Below are positions 2,667 through 32,404 of a stretch of 64,000 nt of DNA, one piece after another (positions within the stretch are counted from its first letter, which is position 1; each line of letters starts with the position of its first letter). The notes below the pieces were generated by a model that did no database searches, was not told the origin of the DNA, and saw only the letters and a list, made by a program, of their open reading frames with translations. The position numbers and the translations under genes were made by a program. Origin of the DNA: Clostridia bacterium (GTDB lineage Bacteria; Bacillota; Clostridia; Monoglobales; Monoglobaceae); NCBI GenBank assembly GCA_017409575.1, contig JAFQSM010000053.1, forward strand, positions 1 to 64,000. Reading direction: 5' to 3'.

Positions 2667-2729
2667 ACTCTATCACTTTTTCACAAAAAATGCAAGTGAC
2701 AATTTTTGATTATGTGACATTTTTTGCAA
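2667..2729 (-). promoter_or_regulatory. AraC-type operator abutting the ABC permease promoter
   Basis: Read on the minus strand, two A-rich half-sites ending in TGTCA lie in tandem with an 18-bp period (2696-2729). The second half-site ends in GTCAC directly against a poor -35 hexamer TTGCAT (2690-2695). After a 17-bp spacer comes a poor -10, TAGAGT (2667-2672). A TATAAC lies a few bases further on, but its spacing to the -35 is too long. The same layout recurs at 5020-5081 and 8521-8582. Weak core elements with an adjacent direct repeat are typical of an AraC-family activated promoter. It would drive the permease genes and possibly the RCC1 gene. Confidence 0.7.
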
Positions 2730-2769
2730 CTTTTTTGTTCTTGTTGCTCAAAAAACCCGTTTCTATGCC

Positions 2770-4923
2770 TTATTCGGATATACCGTCAAGCATAAGAGAT
2801 GTTTCGGCGCCTGCCAGAAGAATGATTCCCACACCGTGAGTGTCATTTATTACAGGGCGAAGCTCTCTTGCATAATAGTCTGTCGAGAAGCCAAAGCCCG
2901 AACCGATGCACACACCATATACATTACCTTTAATATCCACGCATCTTGTGCGAAGTGCCTCCCAACCTCGTGAAGCCGAAACGGTCATACGTTTTTTAAG
3001 CTCACCATTTACCCAACCAAAGCGTACTGCACGGGCAAAAGCATAAACTATCATAGCAGTACCCGAAGATTCCTCAAAGCTTTCGGGAACATCAAGCACC
3101 TGATGCCACATTCCGTTTTCGTCCTGAAGATCAAGATATCCTTCAGAAAGTATATTGAAGAAATCCATAACCTCTGCGCGTCTTGGATGGTCAACAGGCA
3201 TATGTTCAAGAACTTCTGAAAGTGTGAATATACACCAACCGTTTCCTCTGCTCCACGGAACATTGCAAAGTTGCTTGCGTGTTACCGAATATACGTGACC
3301 AAGATATTTTTTGTCTTCCATATATAAATAATGTTTAAATCCGGCAATCTGATTTGCAATTTCGTCCATTATAGTTTCGTTGCCTGTCATTTTGTAGTAT
3401 CTTGAAAGGAACGGCAAACTCATATACATATCATCAGCCCAGATGGTCTCATGTTCTTCCACGCGGTAGAAGTTTCCTTCGGAAGTTATTCCAATTTCAG
3501 TATCCGGGTTTCCGCTCATAACATCTTTGAGGGCATGTGCAACCCGTCTTACATTTTCGTTTTCGCTATTTGCTGCAAGTGCTGCAGAACCCATTGAGCC
3601 ACAAGAGTCAAGATCCAACGGATCGCTAAGACTATCAAGAATCAAAGTGTGACCGTAATTTTTGCGATCCCAGAGAACATATTCGTGAAAATCTGCACAA
3701 AGAGCCACATGACCTTTAACATATTCAGACATAGCATCGTTTTTGAGATACTTGCCTGTTTTGTAAATTCCAAAAAGTGTAACACCAACCGGATAGATCC
3801 ATTTTCCGAACAGCGATTCTGTGTCGCAAGGTCTGAGCATCATATCAGGAGCATCAAGATGCCAGTAGTCCTTGCCCGAAGTTGTATCCATAAGGCGACC
3901 CAAATTATCAAAGTCAGCAATATCCTTGTCTGTTATTTCTGCAAATCCGCCGGCATAAATCCAGTCGTAGTTTGAAAGTGCACACAGGCTTTCAAAACTA
4001 TTGGAGCAATCAATCTTTGCACCCCAAGCTGAATTACCGTTTTTCTGTGTCAGAACCAAAACATTGTGGTCACCGCCTGCAAGATCAACGCTGAATGAAA
4101 ACTTGCCTTTTTTATTCTGAGAATAAACCTCTTTTCCATCTATGTACAATTTAAATGGAGAAAAAGCCTCACCACTGAATTTGGGTGCATCCTCACCTAT
4201 TATTACATGAATCCTGCTTTTTGCCACAAACCAATCGTTCTGCTTTGCGTCCTTGAATATACGTGAGAAAGGTGTTCCGTCATTTGACTCCCATTTGTTT
4301 TTGGGGAACCATTCAAGCGAATGTTCGGATGAGTCTATTTCATAATGAGGGAATTTGCCTTCGGTAAATCTGTGATCCTTAGGGCAAAGCTCTGAATAAA
4401 CAAAACCAAACTGCTGTTCATAATCACTGAAAGGCGAGTATGTATCAGGTGCATAGCTGAGCAAAAATCCAAAACCAAGATGTGTTTTTTCACAACGGAT
4501 AACAACATCGTTCCAGCCCTGCTCAAGATCAAAAAAGAAAAGTATTCGGTCCAGGCTGAGCTCTTCGTTTGACGTTGTGCGTCTTATAAGTTTGCCATTT
4601 ATATAAACTTCGCATTTGCAAGTTGCATTAAGACCACGAAGCTGTTTTTCTCCCTCTTTACTGTAAACCTTTGTATATGCATAAGCAACCTGTCCGCATT
4701 CTGCCTCTGGATATATCTTTGCAAAATCTACATCGTGCTGATCGGCACGCATATACTTTCTTTTGGGGATGCAACCGAATTCTTTTTTGCTGTAAGCAAC
4801 AAAGCCATAAGGAGCCGCCGGATTTTCGCCAATAAAGCGATTTGCTATTGCAGTAAGAGTCGCATTTGTGTCATAATAATTTTTTGCACTTAGATTTGCC
4901 TCAAAATACGGTAAGTTTTTCAT
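2770..4923 (-). CDS. GH105/GH88-type unsaturated glucuronyl (rhamnogalacturonyl) hydrolase with N-terminal extension
   Basis: A 717-residue protein without a signal peptide, so probably cytoplasmic. The C-terminal half (about residues 370-715) is an alpha/alpha-barrel of the GH88/GH105 class. Diagnostic segments are WADDMYMSLPF (the catalytic Asp of the YteR/YesR family lies in W-x-D-D), NVPWSRGNGW and SSGTAMIVYAFARA. The N-terminal half looks beta-rich, possibly a carbohydrate-binding or jelly-roll domain, and is not assigned with certainty. The family removes the unsaturated uronic acid left at the non-reducing end by polysaccharide lyases, as in rhamnogalacturonan degradation. An AGGAGGCAC site supports the start. 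It has its own operator-linked promoter, divergent from the AraC regulator gene. Substrate identity is inferred. Confidence 0.85.
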   Translation of the reverse strand: MKNLPYFEANLSAKNYYDTNATLTAIANRFIGENPAAPYGFVAYSKKEFGCIPKRKYMRADQHDVDFAKIYPEAECGQVAYAYTKVYSKEGEKQLRGLNATCKCEVYINGKLIRRTTSNEELSLDRILFFFDLEQGWNDVVIRCEKTHLGFGFLLSYAPDTYSPFSDYEQQFGFVYSELCPKDHRFTEGKFPHYEIDSSEHSLEWFPKNKWESNDGTPFSRIFKDAKQNDWFVAKSRIHVIIGEDAPKFSGEAFSPFKLYIDGKEVYSQNKKGKFSFSVDLAGGDHNVLVLTQKNGNSAWGAKIDCSNSFESLCALSNYDWIYAGGFAEITDKDIADFDNLGRLMDTTSGKDYWHLDAPDMMLRPCDTESLFGKWIYPVGVTLFGIYKTGKYLKNDAMSEYVKGHVALCADFHEYVLWDRKNYGHTLILDSLSDPLDLDSCGSMGSAALAANSENENVRRVAHALKDVMSGNPDTEIGITSEGNFYRVEEHETIWADDMYMSLPFLSRYYKMTGNETIMDEIANQIAGFKHYLYMEDKKYLGHVYSVTRKQLCNVPWSRGNGWCIFTLSEVLEHMPVDHPRRAEVMDFFNILSEGYLDLQDENGMWHQVLDVPESFEESSGTAMIVYAFARAVRFGWVNGELKKRMTVSASRGWEALRTRCVDIKGNVYGVCIGSGFGFSTDYYARELRPVINDTHGVGIILLAGAETSLMLDGISE

Positions 4924-5019
4924 ATTGTGCCTCCTGATTTATAGTTTTATTATAAGTAATTTTTGTTATTTTTTTGTGGCAAAGTACACTTTGCCCCCTA
5001 TTACATAATTATATTTAAC

Positions 5020-5081
5020 ATAATAGCATTTATTTATATATTTTTCAAGTGACAATTTTTCAAATATGACATTTTTTGCAA
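5020..5081 (-). promoter_or_regulatory. AraC-type operator abutting the GH105 promoter
   Basis: On the minus strand, two half-sites of the type AAAAAATGTCA / AAAAATTGTCAC repeat in tandem with a 17-bp period (5049-5081). They end directly at the -35 hexamer TTGAAA (5043-5048), followed by a 17-bp spacer and -10 TATTAT (5020-5025). The site lies between the GH105 gene and the divergently transcribed AraC-type regulator, so it may also influence the regulator's own promoter at 5140-5168. Confidence 0.75.
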
Positions 5082-5139
5082 AAATTTTTTTGGCGCAACT
5101 AAAAAAGCTTGATTTTTTCGCTTTTATTTGATTTTTTCC

Positions 5140-5168
5140 TTGACTTTGCCCGATTACAAATATATAAT
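5140..5168 (+). promoter_or_regulatory. Promoter of the AraC-type regulator gene
   Basis: TTGACT (5140-5145), a 17-bp spacer, and TATAAT (5163-5168): a near-consensus vegetative promoter. It lies about 40 bp before the regulator's start codon at 5208. Its quality suggests constitutive expression of the regulator, in contrast to the weak core elements of the three operator-linked promoters. Confidence 0.8.
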
Positions 5169-5207
5169 GTTTATTTGTTTGAACTGTATCTAAATGGAGA
5201 GATTGTT

Positions 5208-7520
5208 ATGCGAAACAGGTTCTTTAGCAAAATTCATAATCTTAAAAACAGTATCAAGGTATTGTGGGCAACATTTTATGCGTGTACCATGATACTTCCT
5301 TTTGTCGCAAATTCGATTTTTTATACCAATTTCCAAAACGAATTGCTTAGCGAAATCGAAAGCAACAATCGTCTTATGCTTGCCGGAATTTCAGAAAATA
5401 TAAATAACCAGTTTATACTTGCCGATGAGCTTTCAAACCAGCTTTACATAAACGGTCCTCTTGCACAGCTTTCGACTTTAAGCGAAGTCTCTTCACCTGG
5501 CAACAAATTTGCAATACGCAATGCGATTTCCCAGCTTGGAACCGTTTTTTCTTCACTAAACAACAATCACGATTTTCTAATTTATCTTCCATATTCAGAT
5601 GCAATTCTGACAATGAATCTTGCTGCGGATTCACGCACTTATTTCAGCAGTCGGCTGAGTGATTCGGGCCTTGTTTTTGAAGACTGGAAAAAGACTTTTT
5701 TAGACAACCCCAGCCATTTTTTTGTGTCTCAAAGCAGCGAGGGTCCCTCGCTTTACTACGCTTCCCCCTTTACATATCCGTCAGGTGGCAAAGTTAAGGT
5801 ATTTATCTGTCTGAACACTTCCGAACTTTTTGGCAACTATCGCTCTCTTTACGCAAACGATGAAGGGCGTTTGTTTGTAACAACCCCGTCGGGAAGTTCT
5901 ATGCTTTCTCAGGGCAGTCTTGATATTGACGAGTCCTTGATTGATTTTTCTTCTCTCAGAACAGTCAATAACAGCCAGCAACTTAAAATTGACGGTAAAA
6001 AATATATTATGATGGGATTTAAGGATTCTGACAGTCCGTTTTCGCTTTTTTACCTTCTCCCCCGCAGTGCTTATTTCCAAAAGCTGACGGTCTTGCACAT
6101 CAATTTGCTTACCATAAACTTGATTTCTCTTGCAATAGGTATAATTTTAATTGTTTCTTTTATGCGTGTCACTTACAAACCAATCAATGACATTATCAGA
6201 CTTTTTGGCACCAAGAGAAAGGATGTTGATGAATTTAAGTATATCCATAGCAACATCAAATCAGGTTTTGAAGTGCAGACCCGTATGCAACGCCTTATTT
6301 CAAAGCAGAAAGCATTGGTGCGCGAATACATCGCAATGCGCCTTTTGCACGGCCAGTTCAGCGATTACGATCACTCCACGCTTTTTAAAGAGTTGGGAAT
6401 TTCACCTGTTTCGGAACATTTTATGGTCATCAACATACATATTCCCACCGAATTTGCCGCAGGAAATTCACGTTTTGAAAGCAGCAGTTCAACGCTTGAC
6501 GAAAGCAGTATTTCGTCCGTATTTACCGAACTGATTGTAAATACACTTTCGGACCTTGGATCACCTCATGTTTCAGTTGACCTTTATGACAACCTGGTAT
6601 TTATCGTCAATTTCAAAGACGAAGACGACTACAATCAGCTTAAGTCCCGTATGCAGGAAGCATATGAGTTTATGCACGAAAACGATGTCCCTGATGTACT
6701 GATTATACTTAGTAACCCCCATGACACATTGTATGGCGTTGAAACCTGTTATGCCGAGGTCAGCAACGCTCTCAGTTTTGCTCTTGATGAGGGACAAAGC
6801 GGTGTTATCGAAGTCAATAAAAATGAGGACAAAACTTCTCAGTACTACTACTTCCCTCTTGAAATTGAGCAAAAGCTTATAAACTATATATGCTCCGGGG
6901 CAAAGGATTCGGCCGTTTCGCTTTTGGAAAGTATTTTTGAAGAAAACTTTACAAAAAATCAAATTTCGCCCGAGCTTGCAAACTGCTTAATATACAACAT
7001 TACCGGAACTATAATAAAGGCTATGGAAACTTTCTCGGATAAGAGCAGATTTTCACAGCACACAGCGCAAAACCCGGTATTTTTGATTTCAAAATGCAAA
7101 ACTGTTGCCGAAAAGCGCGAATCCTTAATTACACTTGTTCAGCTTTGCTGTGAAAGTATTTCAAACAAAGAAACCGACTTGACCACTCAGGAACTAATGT
7201 TCAAAATAAAGGAATATATCAAAGAAAACTTTGCAGACCCCAACCTTAATGTTACTTCTTTGTCGGATGAATTTGGCATTCTGCCCTCCACATTATCACG
7301 AAACTTCAAAAAATACACACAGATTGGTTTGCTTGAATATATCAATCAGTATCGTATAAAAAAAGCTGCCAAATTACTTTCTGAAACCGATATGGATATA
7401 CTGCTTGTTTACCGCAAAGTAGGATACAGCAATTACCGTACATTCGCACGAGTTTTTCTCAAATTTTACGGAATGTCTGCTCAGGAATACAGAAAGTTCA
7501 ACGAAGAAAACAACAACTAA
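5208..7520 (+). CDS. Membrane-anchored AraC-family transcriptional regulator (YesN/YtdP type)
   Basis: A 770-residue regulator. The ATG at 5208 (MRNRFFSK) is chosen because GGAGAGATT precedes it; the upstream frame lacks a site. A first membrane segment lies near residues 20-40 and a second near residue 300 (NLLTINLISLAIGIILIVSF). They flank an extracellular sensor domain of about 250 residues, resembling Cache-type sensors. A linker follows the second span, and the C-terminal 100 residues hold two helix-turn-helix motifs of the HTH_18 class (VTSLSDEFGILPSTLSRNFK and DILLVYRKVGYSNYRTFARVF). Proteins of this design sense oligosaccharides outside the cell and activate adjacent sugar operons. 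Three tandem-repeat operators nearby are the likely targets. It ends in a bidirectional terminator. Confidence 0.9.
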   Translation: MRNRFFSKIHNLKNSIKVLWATFYACTMILPFVANSIFYTNFQNELLSEIESNNRLMLAGISENINNQFILADELSNQLYINGPLAQLSTLSEVSSPGNKFAIRNAISQLGTVFSSLNNNHDFLIYLPYSDAILTMNLAADSRTYFSSRLSDSGLVFEDWKKTFLDNPSHFFVSQSSEGPSLYYASPFTYPSGGKVKVFICLNTSELFGNYRSLYANDEGRLFVTTPSGSSMLSQGSLDIDESLIDFSSLRTVNNSQQLKIDGKKYIMMGFKDSDSPFSLFYLLPRSAYFQKLTVLHINLLTINLISLAIGIILIVSFMRVTYKPINDIIRLFGTKRKDVDEFKYIHSNIKSGFEVQTRMQRLISKQKALVREYIAMRLLHGQFSDYDHSTLFKELGISPVSEHFMVINIHIPTEFAAGNSRFESSSSTLDESSISSVFTELIVNTLSDLGSPHVSVDLYDNLVFIVNFKDEDDYNQLKSRMQEAYEFMHENDVPDVLIILSNPHDTLYGVETCYAEVSNALSFALDEGQSGVIEVNKNEDKTSQYYYFPLEIEQKLINYICSGAKDSAVSLLESIFEENFTKNQISPELANCLIYNITGTIIKAMETFSDKSRFSQHTAQNPVFLISKCKTVAEKRESLITLVQLCCESISNKETDLTTQELMFKIKEYIKENFADPNLNVTSLSDEFGILPSTLSRNFKKYTQIGLLEYINQYRIKKAAKLLSETDMDILLVYRKVGYSNYRTFARVFLKFYGMSAQEYRKFNEENNN

Positions 7521-7558
7521 AAAAATCCGTCTTGAGACTATACTCAAGACGGATTTTT
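7521..7558. terminator. Bidirectional intrinsic terminator
   Basis: Perfect 11-bp stem (ATCCGTCTTGA with its complement) closing a loop of about 8 nt, with A-run on one side and T-run on the other. It lies between the convergent AraC-type regulator and the esterase pseudogene and can serve both. Confidence 0.9.
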
Positions 7559-7563
7559 AGTTA

Positions 7564-8410
7564 TTATTCAAACGGTCTTATTTCAAAAATGTCAATCAGC
7601 CACTCAACCGACTGACCAAGCCAATCGAACTTACGGCGGAACTTAGGCACTGCCCATATTGTGGGATCCGAAACCAGAGAAAGTCCATGCGCTCCGTGCG
7701 GATAGATATGGGCTTCAGACGGAATTTTGTATTTTGAGAGCGCCTGTGCATAAAGAAGTGTATTTTCAACAGGTACTCCGTTATCCTCATATGTATGCCA
7801 CAAGAACGCAAGTGCAGTTTTCTCATTAACCTGTTTTTTAAGCGAAAGACGTTCCATAAGTTCATCGCTTGCATCTTCGCCCAGAAGTGCTGCAAAAGAC
7901 CCCGGTTCGCGGAACTCGCCCGAAGTAATTACCGGATACGAAAGTATGGTGGCATCTGGTTTATGAAGACCTTCTTCTATCTCTTCTTCCGTAAATATTT
8001 GTGGGTTATTCCAAAGTGTCGAAATTGATGCCGCAAGGTGTCCTACTGCACTAAAACCAAGGATTGCAATTTGTTGGGGTTTACATTCCACTCCTTGGCA
8101 TTTTGTCTGACTGTCTTTATCGCTGCCGCTGCATCAAGAATCGGAGCAGGATATCGATGCGGTGCAACGCTGTAATCAAGCACAAAACTATGAAAACCCG
8201 CAGCATTGTATCCAACGGCAATGTTCTCACCCTCGCGGGGCGAACAATACTTGTAACCGCCACCCGGAAACACAATAACTGCCGGTCTTGGCACATTGGT
8301 TTCAAGATTGTCAAGAATATATGTTTTGAGTGTCGGCATAAACCCATATTGTGATGGCTCTTTTTTAATTTATTATCTGATGCTGCATTGCTTTCTTCAT
8401 TTCGCTTCAT
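7564..8410 (-). pseudogene. Alpha/beta-hydrolase (acetyl-xylan esterase-like), frameshifted
   Basis: Read on the minus strand from an ATG at 8410 with GAAGG upstream, the frame (MKRNEESN...) runs into an A6 run near 8370 and must shift to continue as EPSQYGFMPTLKTYIL. A second shift is needed at 'AACAAATTG' near 8070. Adding one A at each run restores a continuous alpha/beta-hydrolase of about 280 residues. Family landmarks are VFPGGGY (oxyanion region), GFSAVGH (nucleophile elbow), a catalytic Asp in YEDNGVP and His in PHGAHG. The elbow normally reads GFSAGGH; the Gly-to-Val change suggests relaxed selection. Relatives deacetylate xylan or pectin fragments. Both shifts are single-A losses in homopolymers, so base-calling error is possible, though a relict and another broken gene lie nearby. 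Confidence 0.8.
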
Positions 8411-8431
8411 AACCTTCAGGTCTTTTTCTGA

Positions 8432-8460
8432 ATTGTATTATTTTTATTTAAATTTGTCAA
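8432..8460 (-). promoter_or_regulatory. Promoter of the esterase pseudogene
   Basis: On the minus strand: TTGACA (8455-8460), 17-bp spacer, TACAAT (8432-8437), about 20 bp before the ATG at 8410. It is a strong vegetative promoter with no operator-type repeat next to its -35. The esterase therefore appears not to be under the same direct control as the three AraC-type promoters. Confidence 0.75.
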
Positions 8461-8520
8461 GTATACCATTAATCAAAACGCCCAAAAAATTCCCATTTTT
8501 ACTACTTTTTTTTAAGCTTA

Positions 8521-8582
8521 TGCACAAATTGTCACATCCGCAAAAAATGTCACTTTACAAACCCTGAAAGTTATGGTAAGCT
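8521..8582 (+). promoter_or_regulatory. AraC-type operator and promoter of the GH20-like/GH28-like operon
   Basis: On the plus strand, half-sites CAAATTGTCA and AAAAAATGTCAC repeat in tandem with an 18-bp period (8521-8553). They abut a -35 of TTTACA (8554-8559), then a 17-bp spacer and a poor -10, TAAGCT (8577-8582). Orientation and geometry match the sites at 2667-2729 and 5020-5081. Transcription would pass through the relict at 8617-8973 before reaching the intact gene at 9030, giving an unusually long untranslated leader of about 440 nt. Confidence 0.65.
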
Positions 8583-8616: not shown

Positions 8617-8973
8617 ATAAAAAACAAACTGGTTTTTTTGATTCATCTGATCTCTAATATGTGGAATGACTTCACATAAAGAAAGGGTTATCCTTTTACT
8701 CAAAAAAAACACAAGCCTTATTATCGACAAAGACGTATGGAATGAGGTTACCGGATAAGCCGCAAAAAAAAAGGCTGTAGCTCAATCCTTGTTGACCTCG
8801 GTGATGTAATTTAATATAAATCTCACCCCGAAATCGCAAATGGAAATGTACCTGAGGAAAAACTTTCGTGTTTCTTAATTGCTCCATGGTATATGACTAC
8901 CGATGCTGACCGTTATGATCTTTGGGAAGGTATTCACCTTGCTAAGATTGCAAGAGAAAATTACGGTTATTAA
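8617..8973 (+). pseudogene. Relict duplicate of the downstream GH20-like gene, internally deleted
   Basis: This stretch aligns to both ends of the gene at 9030-9980. Bases 8617-8840 match its first 215 bases with many substitutions and indels; the start ATG has become ATA. Bases 8846-8973 match its last 128 bases with only 5 mismatches, including the same TAA stop. About 600 bp of the middle is missing, with the junction near 8840. No open frame remains. It is a tandem copy that was lost. The 3' part is far less diverged than the 5' part, so it may have been refreshed by gene conversion with the live copy, or the two parts may have separate histories. The rest of the 8411-9029 gap holds only the two promoters described. 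Confidence 0.9.
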
Positions 8974-9029
8974 TCTTTAAAAATTATATTAAAATATATA
9001 AAATACAAAATTAAAGGACGGTTTTTATT

Positions 9030-9980
9030 ATGAAAAAGACAAACTGGTGTTTTTTAATCCATCTAAGTTGCAATATGTGGCATGACTCTACCACAAGACC
9101 AAATGCCCGTGGTGGAAAATTAGAACCAAAACTCACAACCGAAAAGGATGTATGGGATGAGGTTACCGAATATGCCGCAAAAGAAGGTTGTGACTCAATC
9201 CTTATTGACCTCGGTGATGCAATTCAATATAAATCTCACCCTGAAATCGCAGTTGAGGGTGCATGGACTGTTGAACAGCTTAAAGAAGAGCTTAACCGTC
9301 TTCGCGGCCTTGGCCTTAAAGTTTATCCAAAACTCAACTTCTCAACCGGTCACGATGCATGGCTTGGCGTTTATCACAGAATGGTTTCTACGCCTACATA
9401 CTATCAGGTTTGCAAAGACCTTATTAATGAAGTAATTGATATATTCGACAAGCCTGAACTCTTCCATGTTGGTATGGACGAAGAATATGCTTACAATCAG
9501 CAGGCTCTTGACTTTGTTTGCTACAGGCAATATGACCTTTTGTGGGATGATATGAACTTTTTCTGTGACTGCGTTCGCGAAAGAGGCGTCCGTCCCTGGA
9601 TATGGAGTGACCACTTCTGGAAGCATCCCGAAGAATTTGCAGAACACATCGGCAAGGATGTACTTGTAAGTCCCTGGCACTATGTTTACTTCTACTTCGA
9701 TGCTCCGTGTCCACCTCCTTCAGACCCTCATGGTATTGCAGTTATGGAAAGCTACACCAAGCTTCCTGAACTTGGATACGAGATTATGCCCTGCTTTTCC
9801 AACTATACATGCCGTGAAAACACCGACCACACTGTAAGATATTGTAAGGAAAATGTACCTGAGGAAAAACTTCCGGGCTTCTTGATTGCTCCATGGTATA
9901 TGACTACCGATGCTGACCGTTATGATCTTTTGGAAGGTATTCACCTTGCTAAGATTGCAAGAGAAAATTACGGTTATTAA
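9030..9980 (+). CDS. GH20-like TIM-barrel glycosidase candidate, cytoplasmic
   Basis: A 316-residue protein with no convincing signal peptide. It reads as a TIM barrel: LIDLGDAI and VYPKLNFST strands, then FHVGMDEEYAY at residues 145-155, then PWIWSDHFW. The H-x-G-x-D-E signature at 146-151 resembles the HxGGDE motif of family 20 beta-N-acetylhexosaminidases, where D-E is the catalytic pair. The rest is too divergent to place firmly in GH20, and the protein is much shorter than typical members. AAAGGACGG precedes the ATG. It is followed after 23 bp by the GH28-like gene in the same operon and preceded by its own relict copy. A role in trimming imported oligosaccharides is inferred from context; it could belong to an unclassified hydrolase family. 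Confidence 0.6.
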   Translation: MKKTNWCFLIHLSCNMWHDSTTRPNARGGKLEPKLTTEKDVWDEVTEYAAKEGCDSILIDLGDAIQYKSHPEIAVEGAWTVEQLKEELNRLRGLGLKVYPKLNFSTGHDAWLGVYHRMVSTPTYYQVCKDLINEVIDIFDKPELFHVGMDEEYAYNQQALDFVCYRQYDLLWDDMNFFCDCVRERGVRPWIWSDHFWKHPEEFAEHIGKDVLVSPWHYVYFYFDAPCPPPSDPHGIAVMESYTKLPELGYEIMPCFSNYTCRENTDHTVRYCKENVPEEKLPGFLIAPWYMTTDADRYDLLEGIHLAKIARENYGY

Positions 9981-10003: not shown

Positions 10004-11206
10004 ATGAAGAACATATTATATGGCGACGGAATAAATGACGATTTTCCTGCTATTCAGGAGATGCTTGACTCCGGAAAATCATGCGTGTATCTCCCTGCTC
10101 CCGAAAAGCACTATGTTATCAGTTCTGCTCTTCGCATACACTCAAACCAAGAGTTCAGACTTGACAGATACACACGCATCCGGCTCGCCGACCACGCAAA
10201 CTGCGTTATGGCTACGAATGCCGAACCTCGTGAAGTTAATGAAAACATAACCATAAGCGGCGGCATCTGGGATATGAACCACAACAATCAAAAGCAAAAT
10301 CCCGGACATTTTCCTGACCCTGATACCGGTATGACCATTCGCGAATGGAACGAAGCAAATAATTTTGACCAAAGCTGTACATATATGCAGCCTATATTCA
10401 ATGGCATTTGTTTTGTTTTTAATCATGTAAATTCGCTTTACATCGGCAATCTTACGATTGAAAACCCTGTTCTTTACGGAATGGATATCAGTTTTACCGA
10501 AGACTTTACCGTTGAGAATATTAAATTTGACTATTTTGAGGGCAGTCCAAAACTCTGGAACCTTGATGGTGTACATATTGATGGTGGTTGTCGCAACGGT
10601 CTTATCCGCAATCTTCACGGTGCCTGCCACGATGATATGGTTGCCATCACTTCTGATGACTGGCTTCACGGCCCGATTGAAAATATCACCATTGATGGCA
10701 TTTATGCTTATAATTCTCACAGTGCAGTCAGACTTCTTTCGGCAAGAACTCCTGTTAAAAACATTAACATCTCAAACATCTATGGTTCTTACTATGTTTA
10801 TTGCATAATTTTGAGCAAATTTATCGAAACAGACGAACGCTCGGCGTTTGAGAATATTAACATAAGCAATGTTTATGCGTCGCTCTGCGAGGGCACTGTA
10901 GATGTTTCCGGAAACAAAGGTCCACTCATTCACATAGGTCACGATATGGATATACCTAAGCTCTCGATATCCAACCTTTACAGGAATGAGACATATTCCT
11001 CTTTCCCTACAATCGGCATTGACAAAAACACCTGTATCAAGGAACTTGTGGTTTCATGCGCAAGCCAGACAAACGGTACTGAAAATCCAATGCCTTTTAT
11101 CGAAAATGAAGGAACTATCCAAAAGCTTTTTCTTGCAAACATAGATACCGGCGGCGAAGAACTTTTGACCGGAAACGGTACTGTAAAAAATAAGGTAATC
11201 TTATAA
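10004..11206 (+). CDS. GH28-like right-handed beta-helix protein (polygalacturonase/pectin-active family)
   Basis: A 400-residue protein without signal peptide. Repeated short turns of the pattern INISNIYG, ITIDGIYA, LTIENPVL mark a right-handed parallel beta-helix. The central segment NLDGVHIDGG (186-195) and CHDDMVAITSDD (208-219) resembles the N-x-D and D-D catalytic regions of family 28 polygalacturonases; the family's later G-H-G motif is not obvious, so the mechanism is uncertain. It starts with AAGGAG 23 bp after the GH20-like gene and shares its transcript. Lacking a signal peptide, it probably acts on imported oligomers. It could instead be a lyase of similar fold. A strong terminator follows. 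Confidence 0.75.
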   Translation: MKNILYGDGINDDFPAIQEMLDSGKSCVYLPAPEKHYVISSALRIHSNQEFRLDRYTRIRLADHANCVMATNAEPREVNENITISGGIWDMNHNNQKQNPGHFPDPDTGMTIREWNEANNFDQSCTYMQPIFNGICFVFNHVNSLYIGNLTIENPVLYGMDISFTEDFTVENIKFDYFEGSPKLWNLDGVHIDGGCRNGLIRNLHGACHDDMVAITSDDWLHGPIENITIDGIYAYNSHSAVRLLSARTPVKNINISNIYGSYYVYCIILSKFIETDERSAFENINISNVYASLCEGTVDVSGNKGPLIHIGHDMDIPKLSISNLYRNETYSSFPTIGIDKNTCIKELVVSCASQTNGTENPMPFIENEGTIQKLFLANIDTGGEELLTGNGTVKNKVIL

Positions 11207-30926: not shown

Positions 30927-32363
30927 TTAAATAAGCTTCAAAAACTTTTCGTATGCTTTATCCCAGGCAGCTTCATCTGTCGGCTCGTAGGTTTTTATTT
31001 CGGTCGACTTCATAATTACAGGTGTAATTTCGTCAATATCGCCTTTTGCATAAAGCTGAACAGCAATGTTACCAAGTGCAGTTGCCTCAATCGGACCTGC
31101 AACAACCTTTGCCCCTGTAGAATTCGCTGTCATCTGGCAAAGAAGCTTGTCTTTTGTTCCTCCACCAACCATATGGATTGAGTTATATTCTTTACCTGTG
31201 CAATCTGCAATCATGCCGAGTGAATTTTTGTATTTAAGAGCAATACTTTCATAAATACATCTTACTATTTCACCATCTGTCTCGGGTCTGCCCTGACCGG
31301 TTTTTTCGCAATAATCACAAATTCTGTCAAGCATACCGCCCGGAGGAACAAATACCGGGTCATCAGGGTCAATAAAGTACTTGAACGGCTCTGATTTGAG
31401 GGCAAGCTCTTCCATATCGCCATAGCTGTAATTTTTGCCGTCTTTTACAAATTGACGCTTTGCTTCCTGAATAAGCCACAGACCTATGATATTTCTCAAA
31501 AACCTTATTTTTCCGCCAAAACCATACTCGTTTGTTATGTTGTATTCATTGGATTTTTCGGAAATAACAGGTTCGTCGGTAACTGTACCAAAAAGTGACC
31601 ATGTGCCACACGAAATAAATATAAAGTCTTTTTCCATCGACGGAACAGCCGCAACTGCACTTGCAGTATCGTGTGCGCCGATTGCAATTACATCTTTTTG
31701 TTCAACTCCAAGCTCGTCAGCAAGCTCTTTTTTTATTTTACCGACAACCGTTCCTGCCTTGACAACAGGTGGGAATATGCTTCTTGGATAGCCGAATCTG
31801 TCAATCACATCCCAGTTCCAGTCACACTTCTTCTGGTCAAACATATGTGTTGTAGAACAGATTGTGCTCTCGCAATACTTTTCGCCGGTAAGCATATATC
31901 CAAAAAGGTCAGGCATAAGAAGAATTGTATCTGCTTTGTCTATATTCTTTTCAACAAGAAGCTGAAAAAGAGTGTTAAAGTTCATAACCTGAATACCGGT
32001 CATATCATAAAGTTCTTTTTCAGGAATAACCTTAAATGCCTTTTCTGTCACATTGTCTGTTCTTGCATCACGGTAATTGTAGGGATTTGTCACAAGATTG
32101 CCGTCTTTTCCGATTATTCCGTAGTCAACACCCCAGGTATCAATTGCAATACTGTCAAAATCCGCTATTTCGCTTGCCTTTTTTATACCGGTTTTTATCT
32201 CATTAAAAAGCTGCTGCGCATTCCACTTAAGTTCCCCGTTTTCATAGTTGGGGTCATTGGAAAATCTGTGCACTTCGGTAAGTTCAATTTTTTCGCCGTC
32301 AAACGAGCCCAAAATTGCTCTTCCGCTTGATGCGCCAAAGTCAATTGCCAAAACATTTTTCAA
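30927..32363 (-). CDS. rhaB: Rhamnulokinase
   Basis: About 478 residues, FGGY-family sugar kinase. The opening VLAIDFGASSGRAILGSFDG and the segment IAIDTWGVDYGII are specific to RhaB, as are ELYDMTGIQVMNFNTLFQL and VMNLWLIQEAKR-like FLRNIIGLWLIQEAKRQF. It phosphorylates L-rhamnulose in rhamnose catabolism. The likely start is TTG at 32363: AAAGAGGTG lies 6 bp upstream, whereas the GTG three codons earlier overlaps that site. No rhaA or rhaD is adjacent. Functionally it connects with the rhamnogalacturonan-type genes at the left end of the window, but it has an independent promoter without the AraC-type operator. Confidence 0.93.
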   Translation of the reverse strand: MKNVLAIDFGASSGRAILGSFDGEKIELTEVHRFSNDPNYENGELKWNAQQLFNEIKTGIKKASEIADFDSIAIDTWGVDYGIIGKDGNLVTNPYNYRDARTDNVTEKAFKVIPEKELYDMTGIQVMNFNTLFQLLVEKNIDKADTILLMPDLFGYMLTGEKYCESTICSTTHMFDQKKCDWNWDVIDRFGYPRSIFPPVVKAGTVVGKIKKELADELGVEQKDVIAIGAHDTASAVAAVPSMEKDFIFISCGTWSLFGTVTDEPVISEKSNEYNITNEYGFGGKIRFLRNIIGLWLIQEAKRQFVKDGKNYSYGDMEELALKSEPFKYFIDPDDPVFVPPGGMLDRICDYCEKTGQGRPETDGEIVRCIYESIALKYKNSLGMIADCTGKEYNSIHMVGGGTKDKLLCQMTANSTGAKVVAGPIEATALGNIAVQLYAKGDIDEITPVIMKSTEIKTYEPTDEAAWDKAYEKFLKLI

Positions 32364-32404
32364 TCCAAACACCTCTTTATTTCTTTAATGTTTTTGTTCT
32401 TTTA

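Follow-up and report, generated by a model that had tools for sequence, protein, structure and literature searches.

Three promoters around a membrane-anchored AraC-type regulator gene share a tandem operator geometry confined to one locus of a clostridial genome

The window analysed here, a 64,000-nucleotide stretch of DNA from a Clostridia bacterium, carries a gene for a membrane-anchored AraC-type regulator of 770 aa (5208–7520, plus strand) that sits between its putative target units. On one side, all on the minus strand, lie two ABC sugar permease genes (permease 1, 1517–2548; permease 2, 620–1498; both matching BPD_transp_1) and a gene for a GH88/GH105-type hydrolase of 717 aa (2770–4923; Glyco_hydro_88), the closest solved structures of which include YteR. 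On the other side, on the plus strand, are genes for a GH20-like protein of 316 aa (9030–9980), which scores below the Pfam cut-off, and a GH28-like protein of 400 aa (10004–11206), which scores just above it; we place these two enzymes in those families only tentatively. An RCC1-repeat protein with a signal peptide is encoded directly downstream of the permeases (1–537, minus) and is truncated where the contig ends. The window proteins scanned yielded no SBP_bac_1 gene, the sole one found in the assembly being on contig C68. A pectin acetylesterase/arylesterase-like gene (7564–8404, minus), with a near-consensus promoter at 8460–8432, is apparently split near 8090 by a frameshift, either genuine or introduced in assembly.

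The regulator has the architecture of membrane-anchored, YesS/YtdP-like AraC proteins. Hydropathy analysis predicts two transmembrane segments (residues 16–34 and 300–318) around an outer region, followed by a long cytoplasmic part and a terminal HTH domain (HTH_18, PF12833; residues 685–763, E = 1.9e-19, above the cut-off) that places the protein in the AraC/XylS family, in agreement with an earlier, sequence-only reading of this DNA. Among solved structures, the nearest are DNA-binding domains of AraC and of response regulators, many homologues are likewise 750–800 aa long, and residues 394–523 show a weak, sub-threshold GGDEF_2-like stretch. Among 11 HTH_18 matches in the assembly, this is the sole large AraC-type protein. 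Its own promoter, TTGACT-17-TATAAT (5140–5168, plus), is near consensus, as had been proposed, and looks constitutive, with no operator against it.

Three other promoters at the locus share a common layout, re-read and measured here from the sequence, in which two tandem A-rich half-sites, each ending in TGTCA, precede the core promoter. Operator 1, TTGCAAAAAATGTCACATAATCAAAAATTGTCAC (2696–2729, minus), lies 5′ of the ABC permease genes and abuts promoter 1, TTGCAT-17-TAGAGT (2667–2695, minus); operator 2, TTGCAAAAAATGTCATATTTGAAAAATTGTCAC (5049–5081, minus), lies 5′ of the GH105-type gene and abuts promoter 2, TTGAAA-17-TATTAT (5020–5048, minus); and operator 3, TGCACAAATTGTCACATCCGCAAAAAATGTCAC (8521–8553, plus), lies 5′ of the GH20-like/GH28-like unit and abuts promoter 3, TTTACA-17-TAAGCT (8554–8582, plus). 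None of the six half-sites departs from TGTCA, which recurs with a period of 18, 17 and 18 bp, respectively. In each case the last C of GTCAC abuts the -35 hexamer, which is separated by 17 bp from the -10, so that all three promoters have the two direct half-sites adjoining -35 that characterize AraC/XylS-family operators. The half-site consensus is [T/G]CAAAAAATGTCA, with motifs of 13–14 bp whose copies, 17–18 bp apart, are nearly contiguous. In sites 1 and 2 the 13-mer GCAAAAAATGTCA is the distal half-site, whereas in site 3 it is proximal, a swap in order that makes the half-sites look like interchangeable binding units. Promoters 1 and 3 have weak hexamers and promoter 2 has fair ones. 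The paired sites, their periods, the GTCAC against -35, the 17-bp spacer and the poor hexamers at two of the three promoters had all been claimed in the sequence-only reading and measured as claimed. Outside the operators the promoter flanks are only 30–43% identical, so recent duplication of the promoters does not account for the likeness.

The motif is rare. In the window, TGTCA-N12–13-TGTCAC has three matches against 0.1 expected under an order-3 Markov model. The 1.78-Mb assembly was scanned genome-wide with patterns and a sequence profile; it is about 90% complete, so further targets may be missing. Across it, the wider pattern with N10–14 has six matches (the three operators and three inside open reading frames), and GCAAAAAATGTCA occurs exactly three times, once per promoter. 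One further match to the 13-mer, with one mismatch (C20:83583), falls inside an open reading frame. A profile of the three sites recovers all of them at E of about 5e-13 or better, as it must by construction; the informative part is the absence of others, the next match genome-wide being at 0.064, with nothing beyond the three sites above noise and none below 0.06. This genome-wide search bears directly on whether the motif occurs at random or at unrelated genes, and the proposal withstood it, the 13-mer being specific to the three sites and the other pattern matches falling in open reading frames. No paired site lies near the esterase gene or near the FGGY-family sugar-kinase gene (30927–32372), consistent with the motif's proposed absence from the esterase and rhaB promoters. 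Collectively, these observations support an AraC-type operator set that is confined to this locus.

The assignment of operators to three units, as originally put, stood for the permease, GH105-type and GH20-like/GH28-like units, with the correction that site 3 is directly followed by a decayed partial copy of the GH20-like gene with an internal deletion (8619–8973, plus), which separates promoter 3 from the intact gene. The copy is 96% identical to the GH20-like gene over its last 130 bp and 75% identical over its first 225, and the intact gene starts at 9030, about 450 bp downstream of operator 3. A terminator scan from promoter 3 to the intact gene found none, only a weak hairpin, which makes read-through from promoter 3 past the decayed copy into the intact GH20-like gene plausible. 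A weak promoter-like match is present at 8976–9004, just before the intact gene.

Conservation of the layout was sought in other genomes. Scanning 84,980 species genomes turned up no close relatives of the regulator, nor any relatives of the GH20-like protein, through which orthologous loci were likewise sought. Among 51 genomes of the order there was no orthologue of the regulator, the homologues there being 23–27% identical; overall, the homologues found share about 21–28% identity with it. The site profile, run against 390 relatives, gave matches near noise, with the paired motif in none of those examined. In 391 genomes of the class, the paired pattern has about 35 matches, on a loose-pattern background of approximately one per 10–15 genomes, and besides the three window sites only one (G362:C12) showed the layout beside such a regulator; a second match in genome G362 has no correctly oriented gene downstream of it, and those others whose neighbourhoods were examined were rejected.

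That one relative, among about 50 distant-homologue loci, shares both half-site and promoter layout. It belongs to another family, and its regulator is about 47% identical in the HTH. Its site, CCAAAAAAATGTCACTAATTCCAAAAAAACGTCAC (L150:7458–7492, minus), has a period of 20, abuts TTTAAT-17-TAATAT and reads towards a divergent gene for an S-layer-homology protein. The 737-kb sample that yielded this site was simulated 30 times without the layout appearing once; the test is strong but not blind, since the pattern was drawn up with both the window sites and this locus already known. Family-wide, a tandem-period test near such regulators peaked weakly at a period of 18, with a mean z of 0.49, and distant gaps gave similar values at other periods. 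Two further arrangements were observed beside homologous regulators: a tandem of period 18, TTGCAATTTTTNAGA, 5′ of an ABC permease gene and beside a homologous membrane AraC-type regulator (G258, L147 8804–9007), and a repeat of period 16, TGATCNGAACNTAA, located between a homologous regulator and the divergent operon next to it (G091, L069 8325–8354).

YesS is an AraC-family regulator of a rhamnogalacturonan cluster in Bacillales. The YesS/RhgR regulons resemble the present locus in having a large AraC-type regulator beside an ABC sugar transporter and a YteR-like GH105 enzyme, in a local regulon with predicted operators; here the linked partners are the Glyco_hydro_88 protein with its YteR structure matches and the two BPD_transp_1 genes. 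The locus differs in its additional GH20-like and GH28-like partners, and the likeness drawn here is one of gene layout. By this analogy, the logic of the local regulon is best read as following the Bacillus YesS/RhgR regulons. In E. coli class II activation of the AraC/RhaS/XylS type, the regulator binds half-sites of which the proximal one lies at the -35 edge, as it does here; the half-site sequence is different here, the period is tighter and the regulator is membrane-anchored. In Caldicellulosiruptor bescii, PecR, PecR2 and HemR are AraC-type proteins that likewise act locally, on the transport of pectin oligosaccharides, but the repeats described in that work have large spacers (PMC8579813), whereas the half-sites here are nearly contiguous. 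PMC3870299, which names RhgR as an AraC-family regulator in Bacillales, reports that the sites of several AraC-type rhamnose regulators in Bacillales, Bacteroides and Enterococcus have a period of 21 bp; the periods here are 17–18 bp. A period of about 21 bp is common but not obligatory, other spacings exist, and the values of 18, 17 and 18 bp are a variation in detail that does not exclude the sites from the AraC/XylS-family operators.

We consider it likely that the 5208–7520 regulator uses the three sites as its operators, through which it would activate the permease, GH105-type and GH20-like/GH28-like units by a class II mechanism. The regulator would be made constitutively from its strong, unregulated promoter and would sense a sugar signal at the membrane through its outer region (about residues 35–299). 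Two C-terminal DNA-binding domains would then bind side by side, head-to-tail, on the two direct half-sites, the proximal one against -35, and would recruit RNA polymerase to the weak promoters of these units, so switching them on. Its family suggests that the GH105-type enzyme acts on unsaturated uronic-acid oligosaccharides from pectin. The substrate is probably a pectin-derived oligosaccharide of this kind, and the cluster may serve the uptake and cleavage of that one oligosaccharide.

The regulator is favoured as the binder because an exact geometry is common to three otherwise unrelated promoters and the 13-mer is restricted to them, because its gene lies between the targets and no other large AraC-type protein is encoded in the assembly, and because the homologue in G362 has a similar layout. 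Against this stand the period of 17–18 rather than 21 bp, which varies by one base within the locus, the absence from the genomes searched of an orthologous locus that would show conservation, the roughly 50 other homologue loci without the same half-site and a tandem period that is not clearly enriched beside homologues. Binding by the local regulator is a prediction, and ten further HTH_18 matches in the assembly could supply a different transcription factor, encoded elsewhere, that binds the sites in place of the adjacent gene's product. This we judge unlikely, given that the sites are restricted to this locus around this regulator, that the same half-site accompanies a homologous regulator in G362 and that AraC-family proteins typically use direct repeats arranged in tandem against -35.

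The operator touches -35, where binding can also block, and the hexamers of promoter 2 are fair, as would suit repressor operators at which the regulator or another protein covers the -35 edge and excludes RNA polymerase. Promoters 1 and 3 are weak, however, and AraC-type activators usually sit directly upstream of -35, as here; in Caldicellulosiruptor, predicted AraC-type sugar regulators with tandem-repeat sites upstream of promoter elements are classed as activators (PMC8579813). Repression is accordingly a very improbable account of the sites. The half-sites also contain A-tracts upstream of -35, in intergenic regions that are AT-rich, and these could in principle be general UP-element-like promoter enhancers with an incidental TGTCA likeness. 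UP-element subsites are phased at roughly 10–11 bp, a phasing that the 17–18-bp tract spacing does not match. With TGTCA invariant in six of six half-sites, the 13-mer restricted to three sites genome-wide and the strong regulator promoter devoid of the motif, we give this explanation almost no credence.

Activation by the local regulator is our preferred reading. The interpretation originally proposed is supported in part, as a well-supported case of an ordinary kind of local control circuit. It is possible, although we hold the idea as speculative, that a subgroup of membrane-anchored AraC regulators across clostridial families docks through a conserved unit made up of the half-site, its fixed -35 contact and the 17-bp spacer, with the distal spacing free (17, 18 or 20 bp); if so, the membrane tether of the two DNA-binding domains would be flexible. 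Clostridia have many membrane-anchored AraC-type regulators, and the open literature searched yielded little on their DNA sites and nothing on YesS/YtdP. Three operator sites that share one fixed promoter geometry, with a counterpart beside a single distant homologue, provide a directly testable binding code that would help to assign targets and substrates in uncultured bacteria.
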